Positions 4,332 through 22,151 of a stretch of DNA of 22,151 nucleotides are shown here, in pieces (position 1 is the stretch's first letter; every line of letters starts with the position of its first letter). A program made the translations under genes and the position numbers. Below the pieces are notes generated by a model. The model was not told the DNA's origin. It searched no databases and saw nothing but the letters and a program-made list of their open reading frames with translations. The stretch comes from a virus: positions 1-22,151 of the IMG/VR virus record IMGVR_UViG_3300027770_000275, one strand, 5' to 3'.

Positions 4332-6200
4332 ATGCCTTACTACGACAATAACCTAGACGATCTCTTGGCGTTTGACGGAATCCGTCAATTTAGCGGAGGT
4401 CAAGCCAGCGGAATCCAGTCAGATAACTTGGCCGAGAACCAAGTACAAGAGTTAAAGAACATGACTCTATCCCCACAAGGTAGAGTTGAAACTAGGTACG
4501 GATTTGCGAATTTCTCCACAGGAGCAACCACAACTGGAACAACATCAGTTGGCGGGCTTGGCTATTACGATACTGCAACCTACGAGCAATTACTTACGGT
4601 TTCCAGCGGAAGATTGTTTGCCATAGATAACAGCGGAACCGTTGTACCATCGGGATCTGCCCAACCAGCCCTTGCAACTTGGTCAGCTACCACATCAACT
4701 TGGGGTACAACATCGCAAGTATGGGAGAACGGATATTTGGTTTCAGCCACAAACAAAGTCAATATGATTCAATTCAATGACCTTGAATACTTGGTTGATG
4801 GCACTGGAGCCTTGATGGTTTGGAACGGAACAAGTGTAAAGCAGCAAGGTGGGAAGGTTAGGGAAGTTACGGTAACTACGGCTGGCACTGGTTACACATC
4901 GGCAACGGCGGTTATTACTGGCCCAAATTTGGGCGGTGATCCAACAACCTTGCTTGCAGCTACCGCTGGCGGTGCTGTGACGGCTGTTACTGTATCGACT
5001 AATTCTGGTGGTGGATACTCAAGCACGCCTACCGTGACAATTATAGGAAACGGATCTGGTGCTACGGCAAAGGCTGTTATGGGTATACCTCCAGTTGGTT
5101 TGCGTATCTTAGTTACAAGTGGCAACAGGCTATTTGGCGTGGGTAGCGGAGCCGAGCGCAATACCTTGTACGCAAGTGATATTCTGGACGCTGGATTGTG
5201 GGCATCAGAGAACAGCATCGTTGTTGGTGGTGCTGACGGAGAAGAGATAACCGCAGTTGTTCCTTACTACGCCAATAGACTAATTGTATTTAAGCCATCT
5301 AAGATTTATCAAGTATCTATCCCAACCGATATGACCTCTGCCGCCGATTGGGTGGTTGAACAGGTTAGCTCAACAACTGGGTGCGTTGCCGAGAAGACTG
5401 CGATACAGGTCAATTCGGACGTATTCTTCTTAGCTACAGACGGCATTCGTTCATTAAGCCGATCTGTGGCAGACGATTTTACATCAGTTGGGTTGCCACT
5501 AAGCGAGATTATTAAAGACGTTATCCTTACCATCAATCCAATTAACATTGGCAAGTCATACGCAATCTTTAATGACAATCGGTATATACTTTCTGTGCCT
5601 ATAGGTTCGAGCGAGATATGCAATTCAATGATAGTTTACAACACAATTTTACAATGTTTTGAGGGAGTATGGAGCTTTGGAGCCATACAGCTTGCGCAAA
5701 CTAATTTTGGTGCGTTGGGTCGCAGACTTGCGGCCAAGTCATCCAATGGTTTAATCACAAACTATAATGGCTATAAAACGCTAAATTCAACTGTAGCCAA
5801 TGACTACAAGGATTCTGGATCTTATTATGAGTCCTACGTTTCGACTAGAGCGTTTATATTTGGCGATCCATTTGCTAGTAAATATGGCAGCCATTTTGAG
5901 GTAAGCTTTGATAAGACATTTAGTGAAGACGTGGATATATATATCCAGCGCGATACGGACTCATCGTTTGTATCTGTGCTTGCCAACCTAGACCCGTCTA
6001 CCGATGAGCTTCTTCTCCCATTTGTCTTGCCAGCCGTTCTTACTGCCTCGGCAAAGAACAGGGTTGCCAATGATCTGCGTGGCTACGAAAAATGGCGCAA
6101 TATAGCAATCAAAGTTGCAAGTTCAACAGGGCAGTTTGCATTGCGTCAAATCATTGCAGCAGCCAATCCAGACACTATTGAAGTGCAGAAGTCAATATGA
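4332..6200 (+). CDS. putative tail nozzle/stabilisation protein (tail tubular protein B-like)
   Basis: A 622-residue protein with a strong ribosome binding site (GGGAGG). The N-terminus carries a typical segment, FSGGQASGIQSDNLAENQV followed by L-K-N-M, then R-Y-G-F. This matches podovirus nozzle/stabilisation proteins, which start with G-G-x-N/Q and L-x-N motifs and then form a beta-propeller-like body. Residues 177-249 look like an inserted module of G-x-G-Y-x-S...P-T-V-T-I type repeats. The rest alternates beta strands with loops (for example VFFLATDGIRSLS). The stop overlaps the next start (ATGA at 6197). Length is close to that of related tail tubes (about 600-800 residues). Confidence 0.65.
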   Translation: MPYYDNNLDDLLAFDGIRQFSGGQASGIQSDNLAENQVQELKNMTLSPQGRVETRYGFANFSTGATTTGTTSVGGLGYYDTATYEQLLTVSSGRLFAIDNSGTVVPSGSAQPALATWSATTSTWGTTSQVWENGYLVSATNKVNMIQFNDLEYLVDGTGALMVWNGTSVKQQGGKVREVTVTTAGTGYTSATAVITGPNLGGDPTTLLAATAGGAVTAVTVSTNSGGGYSSTPTVTIIGNGSGATAKAVMGIPPVGLRILVTSGNRLFGVGSGAERNTLYASDILDAGLWASENSIVVGGADGEEITAVVPYYANRLIVFKPSKIYQVSIPTDMTSAADWVVEQVSSTTGCVAEKTAIQVNSDVFFLATDGIRSLSRSVADDFTSVGLPLSEIIKDVILTINPINIGKSYAIFNDNRYILSVPIGSSEICNSMIVYNTILQCFEGVWSFGAIQLAQTNFGALGRRLAAKSSNGLITNYNGYKTLNSTVANDYKDSGSYYESYVSTRAFIFGDPFASKYGSHFEVSFDKTFSEDVDIYIQRDTDSSFVSVLANLDPSTDELLLPFVLPAVLTASAKNRVANDLRGYEKWRNIAIKVASSTGQFALRQIIAAANPDTIEVQKSI

Positions 6201-7047: not shown

Positions 7048-8607
7048 ATGGCAGTTCTATCAAAACAAGAATTTTATAACAAAATTTGGCAACCTAATAG
7101 AAGTTTTGTTGAGTACGCACCAAATTGGACGAATCGTAACCCTGTAATTGCCCCATCTTACGATCAATTTGAAAACGATCAAGTCCAAGTAAGCAACAAT
7201 GGAATTCGGATCACGGGAACAATTACTCCATCTAGGGCTGGAGCAATGAAGCGCGATTTTGATAACGCCTATCAAGACTACAAGGATGCAGCGCGAGACG
7301 AAGAACAGAAACAAAGCTTGGCGCAAATTCAAAGCCAAGAGAATACCCGTAACTCTCTTGCATCCCAAATCCAAGCATTGACTGCTGGAGGGATGGGAAT
7401 GCAAAACCCTAATGCTGGTCCAGAGTTTAACCAAGCCTTAACTCAGCTTTCCGCTGGCCGTAACTACGGATCGTCCGACCTTGGCGCGATGTTAAACTTC
7501 CAGGTGTCCGACAAGAACATCATTGATGATTACAACAACTCAAAGCTATCCCGCCTCAACAGCGTAATCGAGCGCGGCAACACTCAGATTGCTGGGATTA
7601 CCGAAAGGCTCAACACGGCCAACAAGCTTCTTGCCGATCTTCCCGCTGGCGACGCTAGGCGTACTTCTTCAGAAGTGTTTATCAAGCAACTCAACGATGA
7701 CTTGAAAAGCGTGACCAGCGCAGTTACTGGCGCGCAGGATATGCAAAAGAATTTCACGCCTATCACGATGGATAGCCCAGAGGCGTTGAAGGAGATCACA
7801 TCCTTCCGCACCTTTGCACAGCTACCCGAAGAGCGTGCCTCCCAACAGCTTTTCCAGATTGATCCAGATTCCTACCGCACTGCGGTTGGCTTGGGCCAGC
7901 AGTATCGCCAGATGGCAACTGAGCCAATTGGTGCAACGACCACGCCAGAGACTGAGCAAATCCGCAAGACCATCGAGGACGAGGCTCTCAATCAGCTTCG
8001 CCTTGGTTCGACCATTGGCGCGGAAGAACGGCGTGGATACGAGCAATCTATCCGAGCCGCACAGACTGCCCGTGGCAACGTCTTTGGCCTTGGACCAGCA
8101 GTACAAGAAGCCTCACAGATCGGTGCGGCTGGCGAGCAACGCAAGCTGGCACGCTACGGAGCAGCGCAAAACTTCCTTGGATCTGGCTTGTCGAGTGGTG
8201 ATGCGCTCAAAGCTGATATAGCGTTCCGTGACGCATTGCGTCAAAACAGGCTGGGTGCAGCCGCTAACTTCATTGGTGGCGGACCTTCCATCTACAATCT
8301 CGCAGGCGCACGCACGGGGCAACAGCAGAGCGCGATGCAGCAGTATATCCAAGCCAATCAAGCCTTGCCTGGTGGGTTTAATCAGCAAGCTTCTACCGCT
8401 GCCCCATTCTATCAAGCGGTTGACCAGCAGATTCCTGTCCAGCTTACCAATGCGTTTAATCAGCTTTATCGATCGCAGGCTGATTACGGAGCTAGCACCT
8501 ACGGTGCGCAGATTGGTGCGATTTCTAGGCAGGAAACTGGATCGCAAGCATTTGGAAATGTTGCTTCTGGTCTTGGGAATTTATTTAGCTTTAGCAAATC
8601 GTTTTAA
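7048..8607 (+). CDS. putative internal virion/ejection protein (519 aa)
   Basis: A 519-residue Gln/Ala/Gly-rich protein one base after the previous stop (TAATATGG). Residues 75-130 and 160-230 are long polar helices. The C-terminal third contains NVFGLGPAVQEASQIGAAGEQ and ARYGAAQNFLGSG, then a Gln/Tyr/Ala-rich tail ending in FSKSF. These helix-and-glycine patterns are common in proteins that line the podovirus core and are ejected with the DNA. There is no signal peptide and no catalytic motif. It sits between the proline-rich protein and the giant protein, as expected for T7 gp15-type order, but sequence identity to T7 is not implied. Confidence 0.6.
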   Translation: MAVLSKQEFYNKIWQPNRSFVEYAPNWTNRNPVIAPSYDQFENDQVQVSNNGIRITGTITPSRAGAMKRDFDNAYQDYKDAARDEEQKQSLAQIQSQENTRNSLASQIQALTAGGMGMQNPNAGPEFNQALTQLSAGRNYGSSDLGAMLNFQVSDKNIIDDYNNSKLSRLNSVIERGNTQIAGITERLNTANKLLADLPAGDARRTSSEVFIKQLNDDLKSVTSAVTGAQDMQKNFTPITMDSPEALKEITSFRTFAQLPEERASQQLFQIDPDSYRTAVGLGQQYRQMATEPIGATTTPETEQIRKTIEDEALNQLRLGSTIGAEERRGYEQSIRAAQTARGNVFGLGPAVQEASQIGAAGEQRKLARYGAAQNFLGSGLSSGDALKADIAFRDALRQNRLGAAANFIGGGPSIYNLAGARTGQQQSAMQQYIQANQALPGGFNQQASTAAPFYQAVDQQIPVQLTNAFNQLYRSQADYGASTYGAQIGAISRQETGSQAFGNVASGLGNLFSFSKSF

Positions 8608-9268: not shown

Positions 9269-12200
9269 ATGGCAGTTGCGAACGAGTTGGACAAGTATTT
9301 CGCCCAAGAAGATAGTGGCGAGCAAGCGCAACAAGCACAGCAGCAGCCAGACGAGCTTGCGACTTACTTCAAGGATCAGCAGGAAGAACAGCAAGAGCCA
9401 ACCAAAAATCTTGGGATAGAGGATTACTTTACAGAGCAGGCGGTTGATCGCCCATCACGCGCTGGTGCTGTTGGCAGAGCAGTTGCTGAAGAGTTTTTAC
9501 CAGCTACTGCTGCTGGTCTTGCAGTCAAGGGAATAAGCGCATTACCGATACCAACAGTTCCAAAGTTTCTGCTTGGAGCAACTGGTGCAATTCTATCGGC
9601 TGGCGCGGCTGGCAGACTTCAAGAAGAAGCGGCAAGGAAGATTGCTGGAGATAAGGCAGTAGAAGAGTTTAAGGCACAAAGACAGCGTGATATAGCTGAA
9701 TATCCAGTATCTACTTTTGCTGCATCAGCCTTAACGCCAACTGCTGGTGCAATTATTGGCGTGGGTAGAAAAGGATTGACGGCAGCAGGGCAAGCTGTTC
9801 GTGGGGCTTTTACAAAGGCCGAGGCCGTTGCGCCGAGGGTTGAGCAGGCAGTGCCAAGGGTTGAGGCAGTCGCAGAAGGAGCAATTAGTTCAGCAGAAGA
9901 AGTGCCAGTAAAAACATTTTATCATGGCTCGCCATCATCACAAATCGAGGAATTAAAACCAGACACAAGGGGTCTTGTGTTTATGTCCGAATCAAAAGAC
10001 GTGGCATCATCATACAAAGCATCAAGAACAAAGAATGTTGATTTGTCAAAAGCTGGATTGACTGATGATGAAATAAAATCATATAGGACATATAAAAACG
10101 CAATTGCGGGGCAACCAGAAATTGATCCGCAGGGCCTATTGAGTGGGAAGCAATTTGATGAGGCAAATTCAGCACTTGAAAAGCTTGACCAATATGAGCG
10201 CGTTCTTGCCTCGCAGGGGAAAGTATATGAGATAAGCATACCAACAAGCAAGCTTATTGATTACCGAGAAGGAGATATGTTTTATGAAACACTCAAAAAA
10301 GTAAGAGATGATTTATACGCAAAAGACGAAAAAAGGCTTGGCAACATTGTTCAGAATGCAATTTTTAATAAAATACCACCGCAATCAAGATTCCTAGACA
10401 AGCCATTTTTTGATTCCCTAAAAAAACAAGGGATAGAGGGCATTACTCTTCCTCACAGCAGGGAAGGCACAGAAACAATGGTTGTGCAGGGAGTAATAAG
10501 AAAGCCAGTTGGTGCTGGCTTAAAAGCCCCATCCACAGATAGGGAGAAGTTGATTCAAGAACTAAAACAAAGAGCAAGTCCAGAACAAAAAGTGCGAGCA
10601 ACGGCAGAACGAATGATAGCAGATCCAAGAACGTCAGACGAATTGGCCGCTAAATTTGCCGACAAAAGAAATAGAGCTTTATATAATACATTTTCTCCAA
10701 AATCTACCGCCAAGGAGCTTAGAAAATTAACTCCAGAGGCAAGGGCAGCAATTGCTGCAAGCGATGACTTGACTGGCGACACCGCAAAATTTGTGTCTAT
10801 GGAAGACGCAAGACTGGCTGGCGATGTTCAAGCGGCTGATTCTTTATTTGACACTATCTATGGCAAGCTAACGAATGCAGCCCAAATGATGAATTTAGGA
10901 AAGCTTATTAACACATCTCCTGAGGGTTACGCATACATATTAAATAAAACCCTGATAAAGGCTACAAGAAAATTTGCTACGCAAAAAGAGAAGGATCTTA
11001 TTGAGAGCGGAGCAAAAATAACCCCAGCATTAAGACAGCAGGCAATAGAATTATTCACAAAAAAACAAGCCACAGAAACGGCAATGCGCGAAGCCTATGA
11101 TAAGGCAAGAACTGATTTCTCCAAGAAAGCAGACCAACTGGCCGAGCAACGCCAATCCGAGGCATTGTTGGCAAGCGGTAAGCTGGCTGAATTTGAATCG
11201 GGATTGTTGGCAAAACAATTGGGGATGCAAATACCAGATTATATCAGAGGCAATCTTTTAACTACCTTATCCCAGGGCGCGAACATATTGGGGAATACGG
11301 TCAACATGCCGACACGCGCTGCGACTAGGCAGGTAGCATCACTGTTGGACCAAATTGAAAGAAATATAATAAGACCAGTTGCCACAAGAATACCTGGGAT
11401 AAAAGGAGTTGCCGAAAAGTATCTGGCAAAAGAGAGGCAGTTTGTGTCTCCATTAGGGCGTGGGTCACTGGAAAGATTTATTGAAGTTGGCAAGGGTGGA
11501 GTTAGGGGGTTAAAGGAAGGAGTGGCTGGGCTTAAAACAGGCATATCTCCAGAGGGTCTTTTGGCTGGCGAGAACATACGAGGATTTAGGCCACTAAACG
11601 CTTGGAAACAATTGTTTACTGGAAAGGGATTAGCCCAGCCAATTGCAGAGGGCATGGAAGGAACTGCGGCAAAGGCGATGGATCGGGTAAGGCTTCTTGC
11701 GGAAGGTACGCTTGGAATCCCTCCAGAAATTATGTTTAGACTTTTGCAACTTGGAGATGCCCCAGCAAGAAGAATGGCTCAGGCAAGGCTTCTTACGGAA
11801 GCGAGGCAATTAGAGGGACTAAGGGGCGAGGCACTTAGGCGTGCGGTAAAATACCCAACACAAGTAGAGGCAGATAAGGTTGCTTCTGAGGTTGCGGAGG
11901 CCGTTTACCAGCAGGACACAAAACTTTCTAGGGGCATACAATACTTGGCAGAGCTTGCCCCAAAATACTTGGAGAAAATACCAGGAATAGGGCGGCCATT
12001 GGCTGGCATAGCAAGAACTGCAACAACGGCAGTTCTTCCCTACCAAAAAACGCCGACTAATGTGATAGATGAAATTCTCCAGTATTCAATTCCAGAATAC
12101 TCTTTTATTCGCGGGCTTGCCGAACAAGGGCAGGGAAACTTTAGGCAGGCAAAACTACAATTCGCAAAATCCATCGTTGGATACGCAATTGGAAATGTTG

Positions 12201-13228
12201 CCGACATCTTGTCTAAAGCTGGAGTTATAACAGACGAAATGCCAAAATCAGATAAGGCGAGGGACATCCAATTCCAAGCCGCTCCATCTAAAATGATAAA
12301 CATTGATGGCATAAAAAGGTTTCTGCAAACGGGATCTAGGCAAGAGATGGAGTCTGGGGATTCGTTGAGGTCGCTTGAAAGACTGGGAGTTGTCGGCGCA
12401 ATTATGTCAACTCGCAACGCAGCTAATCAGGCGGCTGAGAGCGGGACTGGATCAGTAGGCGAGGCATGGGGCGCAACACTCCCAGAAACTCTTAAATTTG
12501 GATTTAATCAAAGCTTCCTAAGAAACATGAATAGTTTGCTTGGCACAATTTCTAGGGGCGAATCAAAAGACATGGACGCTTGGCTTGCGAATTACTACGG
12601 GGCATTGTCAGCGGCAGTATTGCCAAATCAGTTAACATCAGTTTCTAGGTATATGAGCGAAAATATGCCAGACAAGATTCAAGTTAAGGACATAGAAGGT
12701 GGCGATTTCGGAACAAAGTCTTACAACATATTCAAGGAGGTGGTCAAGAGAAAGCTGCCTGGAGGTGCTGAAGGTTTGCCATCAAGAATAAACGTATGGG
12801 GTCAGACAATACCTCAAACACCAGAAGGCGTTGACCCATTTATCTATAATTTCATAGATCCAACAAGGCCAAGACAAGTCACTTACGATGATGTAACTCT
12901 CGCTGCTTATGATTTGTATAAGAAGACTGGGAAAACTGAGGGCATCCCGCAAGTTCCAGACCGAGATTTACAAGTCCTGAAAAGAAGGACTGGTCAGAAA
13001 GCAAGATTTAGGCTTGATCCAACACTTTATGAGGAATATGCAAGCTCGGTTGGCAAGGCAAACAGGCAAGTTGCCGAACAACTTTTAGGTGATAAAATGT
13101 TTAGAAGGCTTGATCCAGAGGAACAAGTCAAAACGCTGTCTAATGCTTACAACAAAGCAAGTAAGACCGCCAGAGAGAGCTTCATTAGAAAGAACCAAAG
13201 AAGTATAGAGTTTGGACAGGAGTTATAA
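9269..13228 (+). CDS. giant ejection/polyvalent-type virion protein with ART-like domain (1319 aa)
   Basis: A 1319-residue protein. Residues 1-57 are acidic and Gln-rich with three [LI]-x-x-Y-F motifs (7-11, 30-34, 50-54). Residues about 72-180 are Ala/Gly-rich and hydrophobic, possibly membrane-interacting. Residues about 214-412 resemble an ADP-ribosyltransferase fold: FYHGS with His219, SSY with Tyr249, and ETMVVQ with Glu402. This is compatible with an H-Y-E triad, in an AT-rich stretch. The rest is mostly helical and includes LPYQKTPTNVIDEIL near residue 925, a pattern I associate with large polyvalent phage proteins. Gene order fits the T7 gp16 position, so it is probably packaged and ejected. 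Without structure prediction the ART call stays tentative. Confidence 0.65.
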   Translation: MAVANELDKYFAQEDSGEQAQQAQQQPDELATYFKDQQEEQQEPTKNLGIEDYFTEQAVDRPSRAGAVGRAVAEEFLPATAAGLAVKGISALPIPTVPKFLLGATGAILSAGAAGRLQEEAARKIAGDKAVEEFKAQRQRDIAEYPVSTFAASALTPTAGAIIGVGRKGLTAAGQAVRGAFTKAEAVAPRVEQAVPRVEAVAEGAISSAEEVPVKTFYHGSPSSQIEELKPDTRGLVFMSESKDVASSYKASRTKNVDLSKAGLTDDEIKSYRTYKNAIAGQPEIDPQGLLSGKQFDEANSALEKLDQYERVLASQGKVYEISIPTSKLIDYREGDMFYETLKKVRDDLYAKDEKRLGNIVQNAIFNKIPPQSRFLDKPFFDSLKKQGIEGITLPHSREGTETMVVQGVIRKPVGAGLKAPSTDREKLIQELKQRASPEQKVRATAERMIADPRTSDELAAKFADKRNRALYNTFSPKSTAKELRKLTPEARAAIAASDDLTGDTAKFVSMEDARLAGDVQAADSLFDTIYGKLTNAAQMMNLGKLINTSPEGYAYILNKTLIKATRKFATQKEKDLIESGAKITPALRQQAIELFTKKQATETAMREAYDKARTDFSKKADQLAEQRQSEALLASGKLAEFESGLLAKQLGMQIPDYIRGNLLTTLSQGANILGNTVNMPTRAATRQVASLLDQIERNIIRPVATRIPGIKGVAEKYLAKERQFVSPLGRGSLERFIEVGKGGVRGLKEGVAGLKTGISPEGLLAGENIRGFRPLNAWKQLFTGKGLAQPIAEGMEGTAAKAMDRVRLLAEGTLGIPPEIMFRLLQLGDAPARRMAQARLLTEARQLEGLRGEALRRAVKYPTQVEADKVASEVAEAVYQQDTKLSRGIQYLAELAPKYLEKIPGIGRPLAGIARTATTAVLPYQKTPTNVIDEILQYSIPEYSFIRGLAEQGQGNFRQAKLQFAKSIVGYAIGNVADILSKAGVITDEMPKSDKARDIQFQAAPSKMINIDGIKRFLQTGSRQEMESGDSLRSLERLGVVGAIMSTRNAANQAAESGTGSVGEAWGATLPETLKFGFNQSFLRNMNSLLGTISRGESKDMDAWLANYYGALSAAVLPNQLTSVSRYMSENMPDKIQVKDIEGGDFGTKSYNIFKEVVKRKLPGGAEGLPSRINVWGQTIPQTPEGVDPFIYNFIDPTRPRQVTYDDVTLAAYDLYKKTGKTEGIPQVPDRDLQVLKRRTGQKARFRLDPTLYEEYASSVGKANRQVAEQLLGDKMFRRLDPEEQVKTLSNAYNKASKTARESFIRKNQRSIEFGQEL

Positions 13229-13229
13229 T

Positions 13230-14246
13230 ATGGCAAAATTCAACGTAAACCCAAGCAGAGATGTTCTCACGCCACAAATGCGAGAATCAATGAATAGGAT
13301 TTTAGAAGGAAGAAATATGGAGAAAGATATGACCAATCGTTCTATTGCGGAGGATATGACCAACAAACCATACGTCCCAGTTCCAGAGGATATTCGCGGA
13401 GAGTCTTCTCGCCTATTGCTTGAGCCTGCTGGTGCTGGCGAAGTCGGCACTACGGTAGGTGGCGCGCCAAATACAAGGGCAATGATGGATGCGGATTTGC
13501 GACAACAAATAGAGGGCAAGTTTAATGAGGGTGCTGGCAGTGTGCCAGCCAGCGCAATGCCGTATCAAGGTCCAGCCACACCAAGACCAGTGCAACCTCG
13601 TGGGACTAGGGCAGCGACTGGGAATGCGCTCAATGATTGGGTTGCCAATAATACCATTAACTGGGAGGCAAGAAGGGATAAGCAAGGCAATCTAGCCGTA
13701 TACGATATTCCATCTGGAGACTACGGCGGCACGAGAGAAGTGGCTGGAATTACGGATAAATACCATCCAGAGGCGTTTAAGCGTATATCTGCATTACCTC
13801 CAGCACAAAGAGAGAAGGCGAGCGCAGAATATGTGCTTGAATACACTGCTCCAATTGCAAATCTTGTACCAGAACCATTGAAGGCTCAAGCCGTTGACTT
13901 GGGTTTTAATCGTGGTCCTAGCGGTTACACGACTTTAGTGCAGCAAGGATTAAATGCGCTAGGAGTTCCAGTAAAAGTTGACGGGGCGTTTGGCAAAAAA
14001 ACATTGGAAGCAATGAGCCAAGTAAATCCAGAGCAATTGATTAACGCTACTGAGGATGCCTACCTACGGAAAGAGCGCACAATGGCAGAGGCTGATCCGA
14101 ATAGGGCGAAGCTATATCAAGGGATAGTAAATCGCTCCAACAAGAGGAGGCAATCAGCAACAATATATGCCAAAGGTGTAAATCCCCAAGCCGCAGAGCC
14201 AGTAGAGAATTACTCGCCAGCACCATTGGGGCTTGGACTTGGCTAG
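13230..14246 (+). CDS. GH108-type muramidase with PG-binding C-terminal region (338 aa)
   Basis: ATG 13230 has an ideal AGGAG seven bases upstream; an in-frame start at 13212 would overlap the previous gene. Residues 1-130 are a polar linker ending in PYQGPATPRPVQPRG, possibly a virion-docking segment. Then NWEARRD (Glu146, candidate catalytic acid), a GDYGGTREVAGITDKYHPEAF segment, and the PG_binding_3-type part DLGFNRG (Asp223), VDGAFGKKTLEAM (Asp251). Order matches GH108 lysozymes, which cleave the peptidoglycan glycan backbone. Typical GH108 enzymes are about 170-200 residues, so this has an N-terminal extension. There is no signal peptide. Placement after the ejection genes suggests a virion-associated hydrolase, though an endolysin role is possible. 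Confidence 0.75.
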   Translation: MAKFNVNPSRDVLTPQMRESMNRILEGRNMEKDMTNRSIAEDMTNKPYVPVPEDIRGESSRLLLEPAGAGEVGTTVGGAPNTRAMMDADLRQQIEGKFNEGAGSVPASAMPYQGPATPRPVQPRGTRAATGNALNDWVANNTINWEARRDKQGNLAVYDIPSGDYGGTREVAGITDKYHPEAFKRISALPPAQREKASAEYVLEYTAPIANLVPEPLKAQAVDLGFNRGPSGYTTLVQQGLNALGVPVKVDGAFGKKTLEAMSQVNPEQLINATEDAYLRKERTMAEADPNRAKLYQGIVNRSNKRRQSATIYAKGVNPQAAEPVENYSPAPLGLGLG

Positions 14247-14605
14247 TCGGATATTCTTTGCCTTCCAGTAATCCAAGAACTTTTTGTTCCATCAAAATAA
14301 GAATTGCCATTCTTCCAAGAGGAGGAGCCTCCATAAAAAAAACTACCAGATTTAACTACTAGCTTGCCATTCCCAAATACTTGTTGCCCATTCGCACCAT
14401 AATAACCACCAGATGTCGCAAACCCTCTGCCATTAGAGCAAATGAATTTACCATCTGATGTTACTGCGGTGTTTCTACCCGTAATGATTGCTGACTTGCC
14501 TAATACGCCTCCAGCAAAATCACCAATACTTACTTCATCATCATCTTCCGCCATCACCGATGCCATCAGCATCGCCGTCAGTGTCATAGTTATTATTGCT
14601 TTCAT
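14243..14605 (-). CDS. secreted small Gly/Ser/Tyr-rich protein on the minus strand (120 aa)
   Basis: This is the only convincing minus-strand gene. It encodes 120 residues beginning with a signal peptide: Lys2, a hydrophobic core to Val17 and a likely cleavage after Ala19 (SVMA before EDDD). The mature part is about 101 residues and holds aromatic-glycine repeats (GGYYG, GSFFYGG, GNSYFDG) separated by short polar strands, suggesting a beta-repeat fold. The stop overlaps the convergent muramidase stop through CTAG 14243-14246. No clear Shine-Dalgarno precedes ATG 14603-14605. No family is recognised. Orientation, a signal peptide and a position between modules are typical of a moron-type accessory gene that changes the host surface or periplasm; this is inference. 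Confidence 0.65.
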   Translation of the reverse strand: MKAIITMTLTAMLMASVMAEDDDEVSIGDFAGGVLGKSAIITGRNTAVTSDGKFICSNGRGFATSGGYYGANGQQVFGNGKLVVKSGSFFYGGSSSWKNGNSYFDGTKSSWITGRQRISD

Positions 14606-14643
14606 TGGGAAAAGTCTCTAGCACAAACCGAAGTCCGTCAAGC

Positions 14644-15027
14644 ATGAAATTATCATCACGCCAAATTGGTGCAGTTGGGGTGGCTCGCGTTACTGGCGCG
14701 CTGCTGCGGTGCGGGTATTCGGTGCTGTTACCTTACGAGGATTTTTCTGGCTATGATGTAGTGGCTGAGAAGAATAATAAGTTCTTCCGCATCCAAGTTA
14801 AGACCGCGCAAACTGTAGAGGCAGGACGCACCAAGTATCGCTTCAGCACTAGCAGCGGGAATGGATTTAATATCCCCAAGCGCGCTATCAGTGGCGTGGA
14901 TTACGTTGCCTGCTGGGGCATGAACGATGACCTATTCTGGCTGTTGCCAATCTCTAAGTGCAAAAGCATAACAACTAAGCTTTGCCCATCGACAGGGCAG
15001 AGTTGGCGGGTATTCCAGAACCTATGA
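14644..15027 (+). CDS. PD-(D/E)XK nuclease, resolvase-like (127 aa)
   Basis: I chose ATG 14644; the in-frame TTG at 14596 overlaps the minus-strand gene start and lacks a binding site. The N-terminal helix SSRQIGAVGVARVTGALL is followed by GYSVLLPYED, then YDVVAE (Asp38) and FRIQVKTAQ (Gln51-x-Lys53). The D...QxK arrangement with a YD-x-x and IQVKTA signature matches the PDDEXK_5 / intron-type endonuclease and resolvase families. Metal-dependent DNA cleavage is expected. Length fits these 120-150-residue single-domain enzymes. The stop overlaps the next start (ATGA). It opens the recombination block, but its substrate cannot be told. Confidence 0.7.
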   Translation: MKLSSRQIGAVGVARVTGALLRCGYSVLLPYEDFSGYDVVAEKNNKFFRIQVKTAQTVEAGRTKYRFSTSSGNGFNIPKRAISGVDYVACWGMNDDLFWLLPISKCKSITTKLCPSTGQSWRVFQNL

Positions 15028-15247: not shown

Positions 15248-15694
15248 ATGGGCAAGATCAACAGCAGGGCTAAGGGCGCAGCAGGCGAGAGAGAGTTAGC
15301 CAATTATCTGCGCGAACAGGGCTGGCAGAAGGCAAGACGCACCCAGCAGTACGCGGGCAATCCAGAGGGTGGTAGCGGGGATGTAGTCTGCGAGAATTTT
15401 CCATTTCACATCGAAGGCAAGCGTTGCCAAGCCCTCAAACCCGAAGAGTGGATGGAGCAATCCAAGCGGGATTGTCCAGCGGGCAAGATTCCAGCAGTAT
15501 TCTTCCGCCGTAACGGACGCAAGGAATGGCTGGTCATACTGACCGCCGACAGCGTGTGTGATTTAGCTCGACAGATCGCGCCAGCCAATGTGACTATTGA
15601 GTATGCAAAGACCGCAACCATCGCGCAGGGCTTCTACGTTAAGTCACCAGCTTTTGACGAACTTACCCCAACAACAACAAACCCAAATAAATAA
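15248..15694 (+). CDS. Holliday junction resolvase-like PD-(D/E)XK nuclease (148 aa)
   Basis: A 148-residue protein starting MGKINSRAKGAAGERELANYL, the classic helix with a Glu that opens Hjc-type and phage resolvases. ARRTQQYAG follows, then GSGDVV (Asp45) and FHIEGKR (Glu56-x-Lys58). The E...D...ExK arrangement is complete, so it is probably an active Mg-dependent nuclease that cuts branched DNA. The C-terminal part (residues 95-148) is less conserved and ends in a Thr/Pro/Asn tail. The 44-base gap upstream is the second-largest in the window. An SSB gene follows, which supports a recombination role. Confidence 0.8.
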   Translation: MGKINSRAKGAAGERELANYLREQGWQKARRTQQYAGNPEGGSGDVVCENFPFHIEGKRCQALKPEEWMEQSKRDCPAGKIPAVFFRRNGRKEWLVILTADSVCDLARQIAPANVTIEYAKTATIAQGFYVKSPAFDELTPTTTNPNK

Positions 15695-17716: not shown

Positions 17717-17889
17717 AGCTGGCGTTGTCATGGCTGCTCTACTTTTTGGGTGACATAATAAGTCGTACGCTTTTGCGTACGGGTCTTGGATACGGACTAT
17801 ACAAGACGCTGATGCTTTGGTCGGTAGAACTGGATGACAAGTTTAATGTATGGAAAGAAGTTAAACCTAGCGGAAGGGGCAAAAAATGA
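17713..17889 (+). CDS. small membrane protein (58 aa)
   Basis: A 58-residue frame fills the region between the acidic protein and the glycosyltransferase, with ATGA overlaps at 17713-17716 and 17886-17889. Residues 2-16 are hydrophobic (KLALSWLLYFLGDII), and a second hydrophobic stretch runs about 24-38 (TGLGYGLYKTLMLWSV), so two short membrane passes are plausible. The tail is basic (KPSGRGKK). A perfect CGTACGC hairpin lies inside the gene. Direct coupling to a glycosyltransferase suggests membrane placement of that pathway, but this is speculation. Confidence 0.65.
   Translation: MKLALSWLLYFLGDIISRTLLRTGLGYGLYKTLMLWSVELDDKFNVWKEVKPSGRGKK
17764..17781 (+). other. perfect 7-bp hairpin inside the small membrane protein gene
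   Basis: CGTACGC (17764-17770) and GCGTACG (17775-17781) pair perfectly around a TTTT loop. The arms encode RT-L and L-RT in the protein. There is no T-run downstream, so it is not a standard terminator. It could affect translation or be a protein-binding palindrome. Confidence 0.6.
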
Positions 17890-18551
17890 AACAAGCAATG
17901 GTAACGCAATCGTTTGGTGAGGAATGGCAAAAGATTCTGGATCTGACTAGGCCACGCATGGAGGCGTACTGCAAGCGTCACAACTGCGACTTCATTCTAA
18001 TCGACAAACCCCTAACCCATCCGATGCAGTATTCTAAATCTGCCATTGGAAACATCATGGCCACTAAGGGCTATGACCAAGTGACATTCGTTGACGCTGA
18101 TGTTTTGATTACAGCCGATTGCCCCAAGCTTTCCGATGACGCTGGGGTGTTCTGCGCCTTTGACGAAGGAGCTTATCTGGATCGCAAGCCAGAGATGGTT
18201 AAGCTGGCTGGGGCTTTCGGCGGGATGATCGAGCCTAAGTTCTATGTCAACACTGGCGTGTTCGTAGTTCATACCAAGGCCGTTGGTATCTTGTCGATGC
18301 CCCCAATCGGCCTGCACCCTAATCACTTTGCCGAGCAGACCTGGCTCAATGTCATGGCGCACCTATGGAACATCCCGCTGACTGAGCTTGACCCGTCCTT
18401 TAATTGCATGACGAGTGTGGAGTCGCACTTTGGTTTAGACCGCTACAAGGACGCAATGATTATTCATTACGCAGGGCAATCAAACGATCTGGTTAAGTTA
18501 GCTAACCAGATTAAAGAAGACGAAGCGAAGCTGGTGGGGTTGGGTAGGTGA
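17886..18551 (+). CDS. GT-A-fold glycosyltransferase, GT8-like (221 aa)
   Basis: A 221-residue protein. The start overlaps the previous stop (ATGA). It opens with KQAMVTQSFGEEWQKILDL, then VTFVDADVLI with a metal-binding D70-A-D72, FYVNTGVFVV at 119-128, and IIHYAGQ with His194 near the end. The order F/V-D-A-D, F-N/V-N-T-G-V and I-H-Y-x-G is that of GT8-like retaining transferases, which use UDP sugars with Mn. It lacks the long C-terminal part of many cellular enzymes. The donor and acceptor cannot be told. In phages such enzymes modify DNA, host surface glycans or virion proteins. It lies upstream of an oxygenase and a GT9-like gene. Confidence 0.75.
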   Translation: MKQAMVTQSFGEEWQKILDLTRPRMEAYCKRHNCDFILIDKPLTHPMQYSKSAIGNIMATKGYDQVTFVDADVLITADCPKLSDDAGVFCAFDEGAYLDRKPEMVKLAGAFGGMIEPKFYVNTGVFVVHTKAVGILSMPPIGLHPNHFAEQTWLNVMAHLWNIPLTELDPSFNCMTSVESHFGLDRYKDAMIIHYAGQSNDLVKLANQIKEDEAKLVGLGR

Positions 18552-18998: not shown

Positions 18999-19195
18999 GG
19001 AAAAGAAAAGGCAAGAGTATTAAGCTGGTTAAGACCGAGGAGTACAAGGCAGTAAAAATCTTTGTCGATGTGGACGATGATCTTTACGAGGCTCTAGCCG
19101 AAGCTGGCAAGCAACACATTCTCAAAGACAAGACGGCTTGCTTTGAGTACGCATTAAACAAAGCATTGCTGGAACTTTGCGAGGAAGTAAAATGA
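18995..19195 (+). CDS. small unknown protein, possible ribbon-helix-helix (66 aa)
   Basis: Start ATG 18995 overlaps the membrane protein stop. The 66 residues begin very basic (RKRKGKSIKLVKTEEY), continue with a short strand KIFVDVDDDLYEAL and end with two helices (KTACFEYALNKALLELC). Strand-helix-helix with a basic head resembles the ribbon-helix-helix DNA-binding fold, which is only suggestive. GAGGAAG near its end acts as the binding site for the oxygenase gene. Confidence 0.6.
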   Translation: MRKRKGKSIKLVKTEEYKAVKIFVDVDDDLYEALAEAGKQHILKDKTACFEYALNKALLELCEEVK

Positions 19196-19761
19196 GCGAG
19201 TTTAAGCAGAAGGTTTTAACGGCTGCCGTAGACCGCTATGTGTTGACACCAACTCAGTGCATGATGCTACGCCAAGACGCAGAGGTAATTGGGATGAAGC
19301 GTGCGACTGTAATGAAGAAGGATGGCACGACTAGGAGGTCGTTTGCCAGAAGCTGCTCGTCTTGCTGGGTTCCGATGGCTCCGCACTACAAGTGGCTTTA
19401 CTCAATCGTAAACGAATTGACTATGGCCGTAAACGCCGAGCATTACCGCTTTGACATTACAGGGGTGCAGCAGTTGCAGATTCTAAAGTACAATCCACTC
19501 CAGCAGTTTTGGTGGCACTACGATACCTACACATCGGAAGCACCAGTTCGCAAGATGACTATGGTGGTTAATCTGTCTGACCCAAGTGAGTACCTAGGCG
19601 GTGGCTTGCAAGTTAAGGCCGACCTAGAGAACGCTAGGTTTATTCGCGATCAAGGCGCGGGCTGCTGGTTCCCGTCCTACATCGAGCATCGTGCGCGTGC
19701 GCCTATCTGGGGTACACGCTGGGTGTTGGTGGCTTGGTTAACAGGACCTAGCTGGAAATGA
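19192..19761 (+). CDS. 2-oxoglutarate/Fe(II) dioxygenase, prolyl 4-hydroxylase-like (189 aa)
   Basis: I chose ATG 19192 because GAGGAAG lies five bases upstream and the ATG overlaps the previous stop. Residues 1-75 are helical with paired Cys (SCSSCW). The double-stranded beta-helix core has FWWHYDTYT (His109-x-Asp111), the distal His166 in YIEHRA, and Arg176 ten residues later for 2-oxoglutarate. The facial triad and co-substrate Arg are therefore intact. The product belongs to the prolyl 4-hydroxylase/PKHD-like group; the ending WLTGPSW also fits. The substrate, protein or nucleic acid, is unknown. It lies between two glycosyltransferase genes, with ATGA coupling to the next gene. Confidence 0.8.
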   Translation: MSEFKQKVLTAAVDRYVLTPTQCMMLRQDAEVIGMKRATVMKKDGTTRRSFARSCSSCWVPMAPHYKWLYSIVNELTMAVNAEHYRFDITGVQQLQILKYNPLQQFWWHYDTYTSEAPVRKMTMVVNLSDPSEYLGGGLQVKADLENARFIRDQGAGCWFPSYIEHRARAPIWGTRWVLVAWLTGPSWK

Positions 19762-20977: not shown

Positions 20978-21112
20978 ATGAACGTAATTAAGGAATGGAT
21001 TCTTGTAGGAGCAGGGCTGGCGATAGGAAAGCTTCTTGTTGCCATTGCGGTCATCACAGTAGTCACAGCTATCCTTGCTGTGTTCTTTATTATAGAGGAG
21101 AAAACCAAATGA
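20978..21112 (+). CDS. small single-pass membrane protein (44 aa)
   Basis: A 44-residue frame with AAAGGA about eight bases before the ATG and an ATGA overlap with the next gene (21109-21112). After NVIKEW, residues 8-39 are almost wholly hydrophobic (ILVGAGLAIGKLLVAIAVIT continuing to FFII), then EEKTK. It is a single long membrane helix or a hairpin. Because it is coupled to a GT9-like gene it might anchor or assist glycan synthesis, but this is speculative. Confidence 0.65.
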   Translation: MNVIKEWILVGAGLAIGKLLVAIAVITVVTAILAVFFIIEEKTK

Positions 21113-22151
21113 AACTCTGGACAAATAACTCAAACTCAATTCACAAAGTCGATGACAATATGCTCTACCCGCGCACCACCTATATGTTGCCTGATGAGTT
21201 GACTGGACCAACTTGGGAGGATTCAATCCCTTGCCCGCACGAGATCAAGCCGTACTACAAAGGCCGTGCTGCTGGTGGTGCAACAGCCGTCTACCGCGCT
21301 GGTGCAATTGGTGATGCAATCATCGCTACTGCGTTTGTCAACTACTTGGTGCAAGAGTCAGGTGGGGTTGTGGAGGTTTACGCTCCTGCTCGCAACCTGC
21401 CTCTCTACGCTGGGCTGGGTGCAAAGCTGTGGCCGTTGCCTGCATCGCTGGAGGCATGGAGGTCATTTGATGCTCACTTGCCAACGGATGATTTGTTCAG
21501 CGGTCAGGTTGGCAACACCAAGCTAGGCACTGGCGGTGGCAACTGCTACCAGAGGATCTACGAGTGGATGGGGGTTTGGGATGAGAAGAAGATGGCGAAG
21601 TATTGTAAGCCAGTTCTGCATCTCATCGAGCCAGACCATGAAGAGCTAAAGGCGATGGGCAAGTGGCCGTTGCCTAGTCCGTTCTTTGCTTACCACGTTT
21701 CGTCTAGCGGTCCTACCCGCACCTACCCGCCAACGATGGGGCAGGAGGCGGTGCTGGCGTTGCTGGAAGCTTATCCCAAACATCACGCTGTTATTATTGG
21801 CCTAGATAACTCAAACAACTTTAAGGTGGATCATCCGCGAGTGATTGACTTATTTAACTGCACCAAGACTGTGCGCTCGCTGTTCCCGATTATCAGCGGG
21901 GCTGACTTTGTTGTCGCTCCAGATAGTAGTGTCAACCACATGGCTGCTGGGTTGGATACGCCGTGTGTGTCGTTGTGGGGCTCGTATTCCCCAGAAGACA
22001 GAATGACGTATTATAGTAAGAACGTATCGGTGTTCAAGCCTGATACTTGCCCGCACGCACCTTGCCGTCCGCACGCTGGGTTGCCACAGGCGAAGTGTAA
22101 GGATGCGAGTAACCGCACACCTAAGACGCAGTATTGGTGTAATGCGTTACG
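21109..22151 (+). CDS. GT-B glycosyltransferase, GT9/heptosyltransferase-like (partial, at least 347 aa)
   Basis: The frame starts at ATG 21109 inside the previous stop and stays open to the window end, giving 347 codons. AIGDAI at 66-71 lies near the start of the fold, as in GT9 enzymes. The C-terminal domain has VVAPDSSVNHMAAGLDTPCV (Asp272, His277), then SLWGSYSPED, matching the D-S/T-x-x-x-H-x-A-A-A...P-x-x-x-L-x-G-x-x nucleotide-sugar site of ADP-heptose:LPS heptosyltransferases and relatives. Four Cys and two His lie in the last 35 residues (C314, H316, C319, H322, C330, C344), an unusual extension. The enzyme would transfer a sugar to an unknown acceptor; a host LPS, virion or DNA acceptor is possible. 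Its end lies outside. Confidence 0.75.
   Translation, partial: MKLWTNNSNSIHKVDDNMLYPRTTYMLPDELTGPTWEDSIPCPHEIKPYYKGRAAGGATAVYRAGAIGDAIIATAFVNYLVQESGGVVEVYAPARNLPLYAGLGAKLWPLPASLEAWRSFDAHLPTDDLFSGQVGNTKLGTGGGNCYQRIYEWMGVWDEKKMAKYCKPVLHLIEPDHEELKAMGKWPLPSPFFAYHVSSSGPTRTYPPTMGQEAVLALLEAYPKHHAVIIGLDNSNNFKVDHPRVIDLFNCTKTVRSLFPIISGADFVVAPDSSVNHMAAGLDTPCVSLWGSYSPEDRMTYYSKNVSVFKPDTCPHAPCRPHAGLPQAKCKDASNRTPKTQYWCNAL

Follow-up and report, generated by a model that had tools for sequence, protein, structure and literature searches.

Does a large, putatively ejected virion protein of a short-tailed phage carry an ADP-ribosyltransferase (ART), and is such a domain a fixed part of the protein or a payload that closely related phages gain and lose? 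The question arises from an IMG/VR virus record of 22,151 bases, referred to here as the window. A sequence-only reading had pointed to FYHGS (His219), SSY (Tyr249) and ETMVVQ (Glu402) in a 1319-residue protein and had likened them to the H-Y-E triad of ARTs. The protein is encoded by an intact ORF (Table 1), and all three motifs are present at the positions noted.

The 1319-aa ORF lies downstream of capsid and tail genes and upstream of a peptidoglycan-binding lysis gene. Its position and size suggest that the product is packaged in the head and ejected, and gene order and size thereby support the earlier placement of the putative ART in a large protein at the position of podovirus ejection proteins. 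The protein as a whole has no assignment in Pfam, PHROGs or PDB sequences, its remaining part has no match among known ejection proteins, and the fast divergence of ejection-type proteins limits library searches with it. The 622-aa protein encoded upstream also matches PHROG 3287, a virion structural protein (1.9e-6), and the 519-aa protein of the same gene block has no profile assignment in Pfam or PHROG. A related contig with the domain (L005/G002, 37.8 kb) contains, in this order, terminase-sized, portal-like, scaffold-like, capsid and tail-type genes, the large protein and an endolysin-like gene, several of these names being our own reading. The capsid protein encoded by L005 is related to the N4-gp56-type capsid found in podoviruses, with 26% identity (E 1e-11) to that of Pseudoalteromonas phage Y3, for example. 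The phage is therefore best read as short-tailed, with a capsid protein of the N4-gp56 type.

Table 1 Features of the window discussed in the text, with the basis of each assignment
Feature	Position	Strand	Basis
622-aa virion protein, upstream	4332..6200	+	PHROG 511 internal virion protein, partial, E 1.1e-8
519-aa protein, ejection-protein gene block	7048..8607	+	Function suggested by position only
1319-aa protein, putative large ejection (internal virion) protein	9269..13228	+	Intact ORF, ATG start
N-terminal moderately hydrophobic segments, residues ~60-175, ahead of the ART domain	9446..9793	+	Kyte-Doolittle
Exchanged allelic block, residues ~206-620 (ART cassette and divergent helical segment)	9884..11128	+	Identity drop
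ART-like domain, residues 214-413	9908..10507	+	In-frame; PF18760, phage family profile, model
His219, motif 1 (YHG)	9923..9925	+	Aligns with family His
Tyr249, motif 2 (F-x-S-x5-A-x2-Y)	10013..10015	+	Aligns with family Tyr
Glu390 (GIEGI), preferred candidate third active-site residue	10436..10438	+	Aligns with family Asp
Glu402 (ETMVVQ), third residue of the sequence-only reading	10472..10474	+	Column variable
Endolysin-like protein, peptidoglycan-binding domain	13212..14246	+	PF09374 5.4e-7; PHROG 315 endolysin 7e-11

The window carries several further genes beyond the endolysin-like gene. A 120-aa ORF with a signal-peptide-like start (14243-14605, minus strand) is conserved in the L005 phage (121 aa). 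Two adjoining PD-(D/E)XK endonuclease-like genes (14596-15027 and 15248-15694) belong to different families (PF11645 and PF24608). A glycosyltransferase-8-like gene, below cut-off (17886-18551), a 2OG-Fe(II) oxygenase gene (19177-19761) and a glycosyltransferase-9 gene (20995-22149) possibly serve DNA or cell-surface modification.

Residues about 214-413 are very probably an ART-like domain of the phage polyvalent-protein type (ART-PolyVal, Tox-ART-HYD2 clade). The Pfam profile of this family, PF18760, matches the excised domain with E=0.022 and 16 bits, about half of the curated cut-off of 31.2 bits. Run against complete records, it has a single match in each of three records with the domain (ART+; E 1.8e-4 to 5.3e-4, 15.2-15.6 bits, below the Pfam cut-off) and has no match in three records without it (ART-). 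The ART-like domain is the sole domain returned by a Pfam search of the 1319-aa protein, and only once excised; no other polyvalent domain was found by this search, which divergent domains could escape. A DNA pattern for motifs 1 and 2 yielded a phage protein (L020) with PF18760 at 82.8 bits, and a second pattern yielded 75 further ART-like loci. A family profile was built from 48 ART-PolyVal-like phage domains, namely those of 45 of the 75 loci, the L020 domain (L028) and the domains of phages JSF7 and Jess A, with the window excluded. This profile scores the excised domain at 25.4 bits and the whole protein at 19.1 bits (aligned over 215-405, with the order of the domain kept), scores limited by the fact that most profile members were picked by N-terminal motifs common to the window. 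The best of 5,000 shuffled domains reaches 10.8 bits, the best of 1,000 shuffled whole proteins 5.7 bits and the best of 1,158 unrelated ORFs 7.2 bits. The C-terminal half of the domain alone scores 5.4 bits, which 43 of 5,000 shuffles equal. The family profile also resembles, though below threshold, diphtheria-type exotoxins in the part with the H-Y motif (E 0.18-0.96); it supersedes an earlier profile-profile comparison based on seven family members, which gave a probability of 25% over the N-terminal part only. A tblastn search of phage and plasmid records with the whole protein or the domain found no relative, nor did a search of the genome collection, in which the sole motif-pattern match, a Desulfobulbaceae MAG, was rejected as chance. 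These comparisons are best explained if the domain is a distant relative of the ART-PolyVal (Tox-ART-HYD2) family, so divergent that curated profiles miss it. The proposal of an H-Y-acid ART of the polyvalent-protein kind is thus supported by the family profile and by the occurrence of PF18760 in ART+ records; the profile check against ART families that had been suggested shows the similarity, but not at the level of the curated Pfam cut-off.

The sequence-only reading missed that the domain is present in some alleles of the protein and absent from others. Homologues of the 1319-aa protein occur in 12 IMG/VR contigs. Two of them (L004 and L005) carry the ART domain, 95-97% identical over its length; nine (L006 and L008-L015) do without it and have PVQQELPLGG and a short linker there; and in the remaining one (L007) the cassette site lies outside the coverage. 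Over the last 700 residues, the identity of ART- relatives reaches ~97%; it is 38-62% over residues 424-620 versus 67-97% over 621-1319. L006 is 94% identical to the window over 61-130 and 86% over 131-205, falls to 40-62% over 424-620 and returns to 94-97% in all that follows from 621, so some 400 residues have been swapped as a block. The first 60 residues of L005 resemble those of L006 and are of another type than the window's (24% identity), so the cassette is found with two kinds of N-terminus. When the window is compared with the L005 contig, the domain has a synonymous divergence of 0.25 and the gene tail one of 0.78, and this contrast again points to recombination. The GC content is 38.8% over residues 214-413 versus 47.9% in the window. 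An assembly chimera is ruled out because three contigs from different metagenomes have the same junctions. The domain is a discrete exchangeable cassette, and dN/dS values of 0.014-0.075 over three intact ART+ contigs show that it is under strong purifying selection where it is present. Since most relatives do without it, it is not essential. The last scan for other payloads at the cassette site gave known contigs only.

The decapeptide PVQQELPLGG is present at the cassette site of all nine ART- alleles (residue ~209 in L006), even at 57% overall identity, and is reminiscent of a short linear motif, such as a sliding-clamp hexapeptide.

It is a tentative, almost evenly balanced suggestion that the ejection proteins in this group of phages include a site for a payload, where near-identical phages gain, lose and exchange an enzyme that modifies the host early. 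If so, phages whose ejection proteins are otherwise similar differ by one injected enzyme. The presence/absence polymorphism is the new part, a limited search of the literature having found no description of it; ART domains at such a position are already known or visible.

Which residues would form the active site? His219 falls at the strand 1 position (strand 3-7 in the model described below). In most family rows, His and Tyr were set in advance by the pattern used to select them. The column of Glu390 is absent from that pattern and holds Asp in 39 of 40 family rows; Glu390 aligns with the family Asp of G[YFH]D in four alignment modes, and an Asp-to-Glu change is conservative. At Glu402, family members have T, G, K, N, R, V, D or E. 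These residue assignments make no use of small mixed alignments, in which the C-terminus was misplaced. Polyvalent ARTs have a His-Tyr-Asp triad (PMC5512222), and from its conservation we read the family Asp as the Asp of this triad. Because of the triad, the nearly invariant Asp column and the variable Glu402 column, Glu390 is more likely than Glu402 to be the third active-site residue, and the earlier choice of Glu402 was dropped.

The Glu at this third position raises the question of whether the fold is degenerate, transferring no ADP-ribose and instead having a structural or binding role in the ejection complex. The domain of a cyanophage A4 ejection protein keeps YHGT and GVD with Asn in place of Tyr, and ejection proteins can therefore keep ART folds without the full motif. 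However, the window domain keeps both His and Tyr, its third position is still acidic, its low dN/dS argues against decay, and the nine relatives without it indicate that it is not needed for assembly. We consider a degenerate fold unlikely.

Structure prediction and fold search, as suggested earlier, gave a divided answer. A model built on 43 sequences has a pLDDT of 53 and a pTM of 0.45, with better values for the 40 residues at either end, and Foldseek matches of this model to the PDB are not significant. A structural aligner run on Foldseek's candidates gave ParT (Z 8.9), VPA0770 (8.8), RES (8.2), MbcT (7.6), the cyanophage A4 pre-ejectosome (7.0), KptA/Tpt1 (up to 6.8), NatT (6.4), CRM197 (5.7) and Arr-2 (5.2), with the anti-CRISPR protein 6kyf (6.6) also listed, so that the solved structures aligning most closely with the model are nearly all ART-fold proteins (Z 8.9-5). 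In a viral-structure library, several ART-PolyVal-annotated proteins are among the best matches (E about 1e-3 to 1e-2). Because the alignment behind the model is composed of ART-PolyVal sequences, the fold is partly assumed, and these matches are a sign of consistency rather than independent proof. A first model from a thin alignment (pLDDT 55.6) had no ART matches and was discarded. The low-confidence model resembles solved ART-fold proteins; the Foldseek search and the thin-alignment model do not bear this out.

The same alignments bear on the chemistry. Besides ParT, the top matches include the NAD+-degrading toxins RES and MbcT as well as KptA/Tpt1, as would fit an ART-fold enzyme that hydrolyzes or phosphorolyzes NAD+ in the manner of RES and MbcT or modifies a nucleic acid or an NAD-derived signal. 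However, the motifs are of the ART-PolyVal H-Y-acid type rather than the RES type, and the model is too poor for telling substrates apart; such other chemistry seems improbable. That the domain is no ART at all, its H-Y-E order having arisen by chance in a helical segment of an ejection protein, would fit the Pfam score below cut-off, the low model confidence and the weak C-terminal half, but is very improbable given a family score of 25.4 bits, where no shuffle out of 5,000 exceeds 10.8, a Pfam match limited to ART+ records and a cassette that is discrete, mobile and selected.

We favor, with fair confidence, the reading that the ART-like domain is an exchangeable cassette in a large ejection protein of a short-tailed phage, is injected and ADP-ribosylates a host macromolecule early in infection. 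The 1319-aa protein would be packed in the head and would leave with the first DNA. T7 gp16 ends up divided between the periplasm and the cytoplasm. Because NAD+ is cytoplasmic, an active ART must get to the cytoplasmic side of the membrane, and the hydrophobic stretches at residues 60-175 before the domain, with Kyte-Doolittle peaks of 1.26-1.42 at 76-109 and 147-165 (hydropathy only), would allow either topology. T4 Alt ADP-ribosylates RNA polymerase and is a model for early ADP-ribosylation here. Having reached the NAD+ of the host cytoplasm, the domain would move ADP-ribose to a host macromolecule ahead of phage gene expression, presumably using His219, Tyr249 and an acidic residue, preferably Glu390. 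Ejection proteins in general exit the head ahead of the DNA or together with it and build a channel through the envelope (PMC8954989). The cassette probably helps only under some conditions, which may be set by the host or a defence system, since most relatives do without it.

ARTs that enter with phage DNA have usually been studied in contractile-tailed phages. The present case adds a divergent ART member that curated profiles miss, and a natural comparison is offered by phages that have the enzyme and phages that lack it, their ejection protein being about 95% alike in its C-terminal part. Such an ART+/ART- pair would let the role of an injected ART in early infection, and the hosts or defences concerned, be tested directly.

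How does the window domain compare with known systems? It shares with ART-PolyVal (PF18760) the YHG His, the F-x-S/T-x5-A-x2-Y Tyr and an acidic residue that follows a helix and lies in G-x-[DE], and with the ART-PolyVal domains of PMC5512222 the placement in a large phage protein at the ejected-protein position. In contrast, it has Glu for the Asp of 39 of 40 members, scores below the Pfam cut-off and carries a long helical insertion that separates the Tyr helix from the strand after it. Polyvalent proteins combine several dissimilar effector domains in one chain; in the window protein, Pfam finds no second polyvalent domain. Stand-alone ART-PolyVal-like proteins of ~190 aa (L045, L048, L057, L086 and L090) have a C-terminal motif (KPFIDELKARGFDSIYIDN) nearer to that of the window than most family members'.

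An ART on an ejection protein had been regarded as a different way of delivery; it is not new, having been proposed in 2017 for injected polyvalent proteins, with the vRNAP of a Roseovarius podovirus as prototype (PMC5512222), and seen in cyanophage A4. By that description, the vRNAP of Roseovarius Plymouth podovirus 1 is likewise a giant podovirus protein, expected to be ejected, with an ART domain. However, its ART is fused to an N4-like RNA polymerase module, and none was found in the window protein. An ART is annotated in Pseudoalteromonas phage vB_PunP_Y3 (PMC11654794), in which PF18760 matches two adjacent large proteins (1027 aa and 3421 aa), one at 28.9 bits and thus below the cut-off; as in the window group, the capsid protein is of the N4-gp56 type and the ART proteins follow the tail genes. 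Likewise, Vibrio phage JSF7 (1683-aa protein, L022 8021-13072; PF18760 28.5 bits, also below the cut-off) and Caulobacter phage Jess A (2039-aa protein, L021 6213-12332; 79.3 bits) have the ART domain in a large protein after the tail genes, and JSF7 has a long insertion similar to that of the window. The JSF7 and Jess A proteins are annotated merely as hypothetical protein or lysis protein. The rest of the window protein has no homology found to the proteins of Y3, JSF7, Jess A and StenR_269.

The pre-ejectosome protein of cyanophage A4 (PDB 9k3a chain B; A4L_27) has an ART-like domain at residues 1424-1596 of 1717, and its motif residues given above come from the printed sequence. The protein is encoded in Anabaena phage A-4L (cyanophage A4) at L111 20116-25269 (minus strand), and its ART-like domain is undetected by Pfam. 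Cyanophage A4 thus has an ART-fold domain in a solved pre-ejection complex, near the C-terminus of the protein, whereas that of the window lies at 214-413. In a 2022 survey, packaged ARTs occur mostly in myoviruses, and ~3% of podoviruses carry any ART (PMC9503650). T4 Alt is such a head-packaged and injected ART (PMC9503650), but it belongs to the R-S-E clade and is a separate protein of a contractile-tailed phage, whereas the window domain is of the H-Y-acid type and is built into a putative ejection protein of what is best explained as a short-tailed phage.
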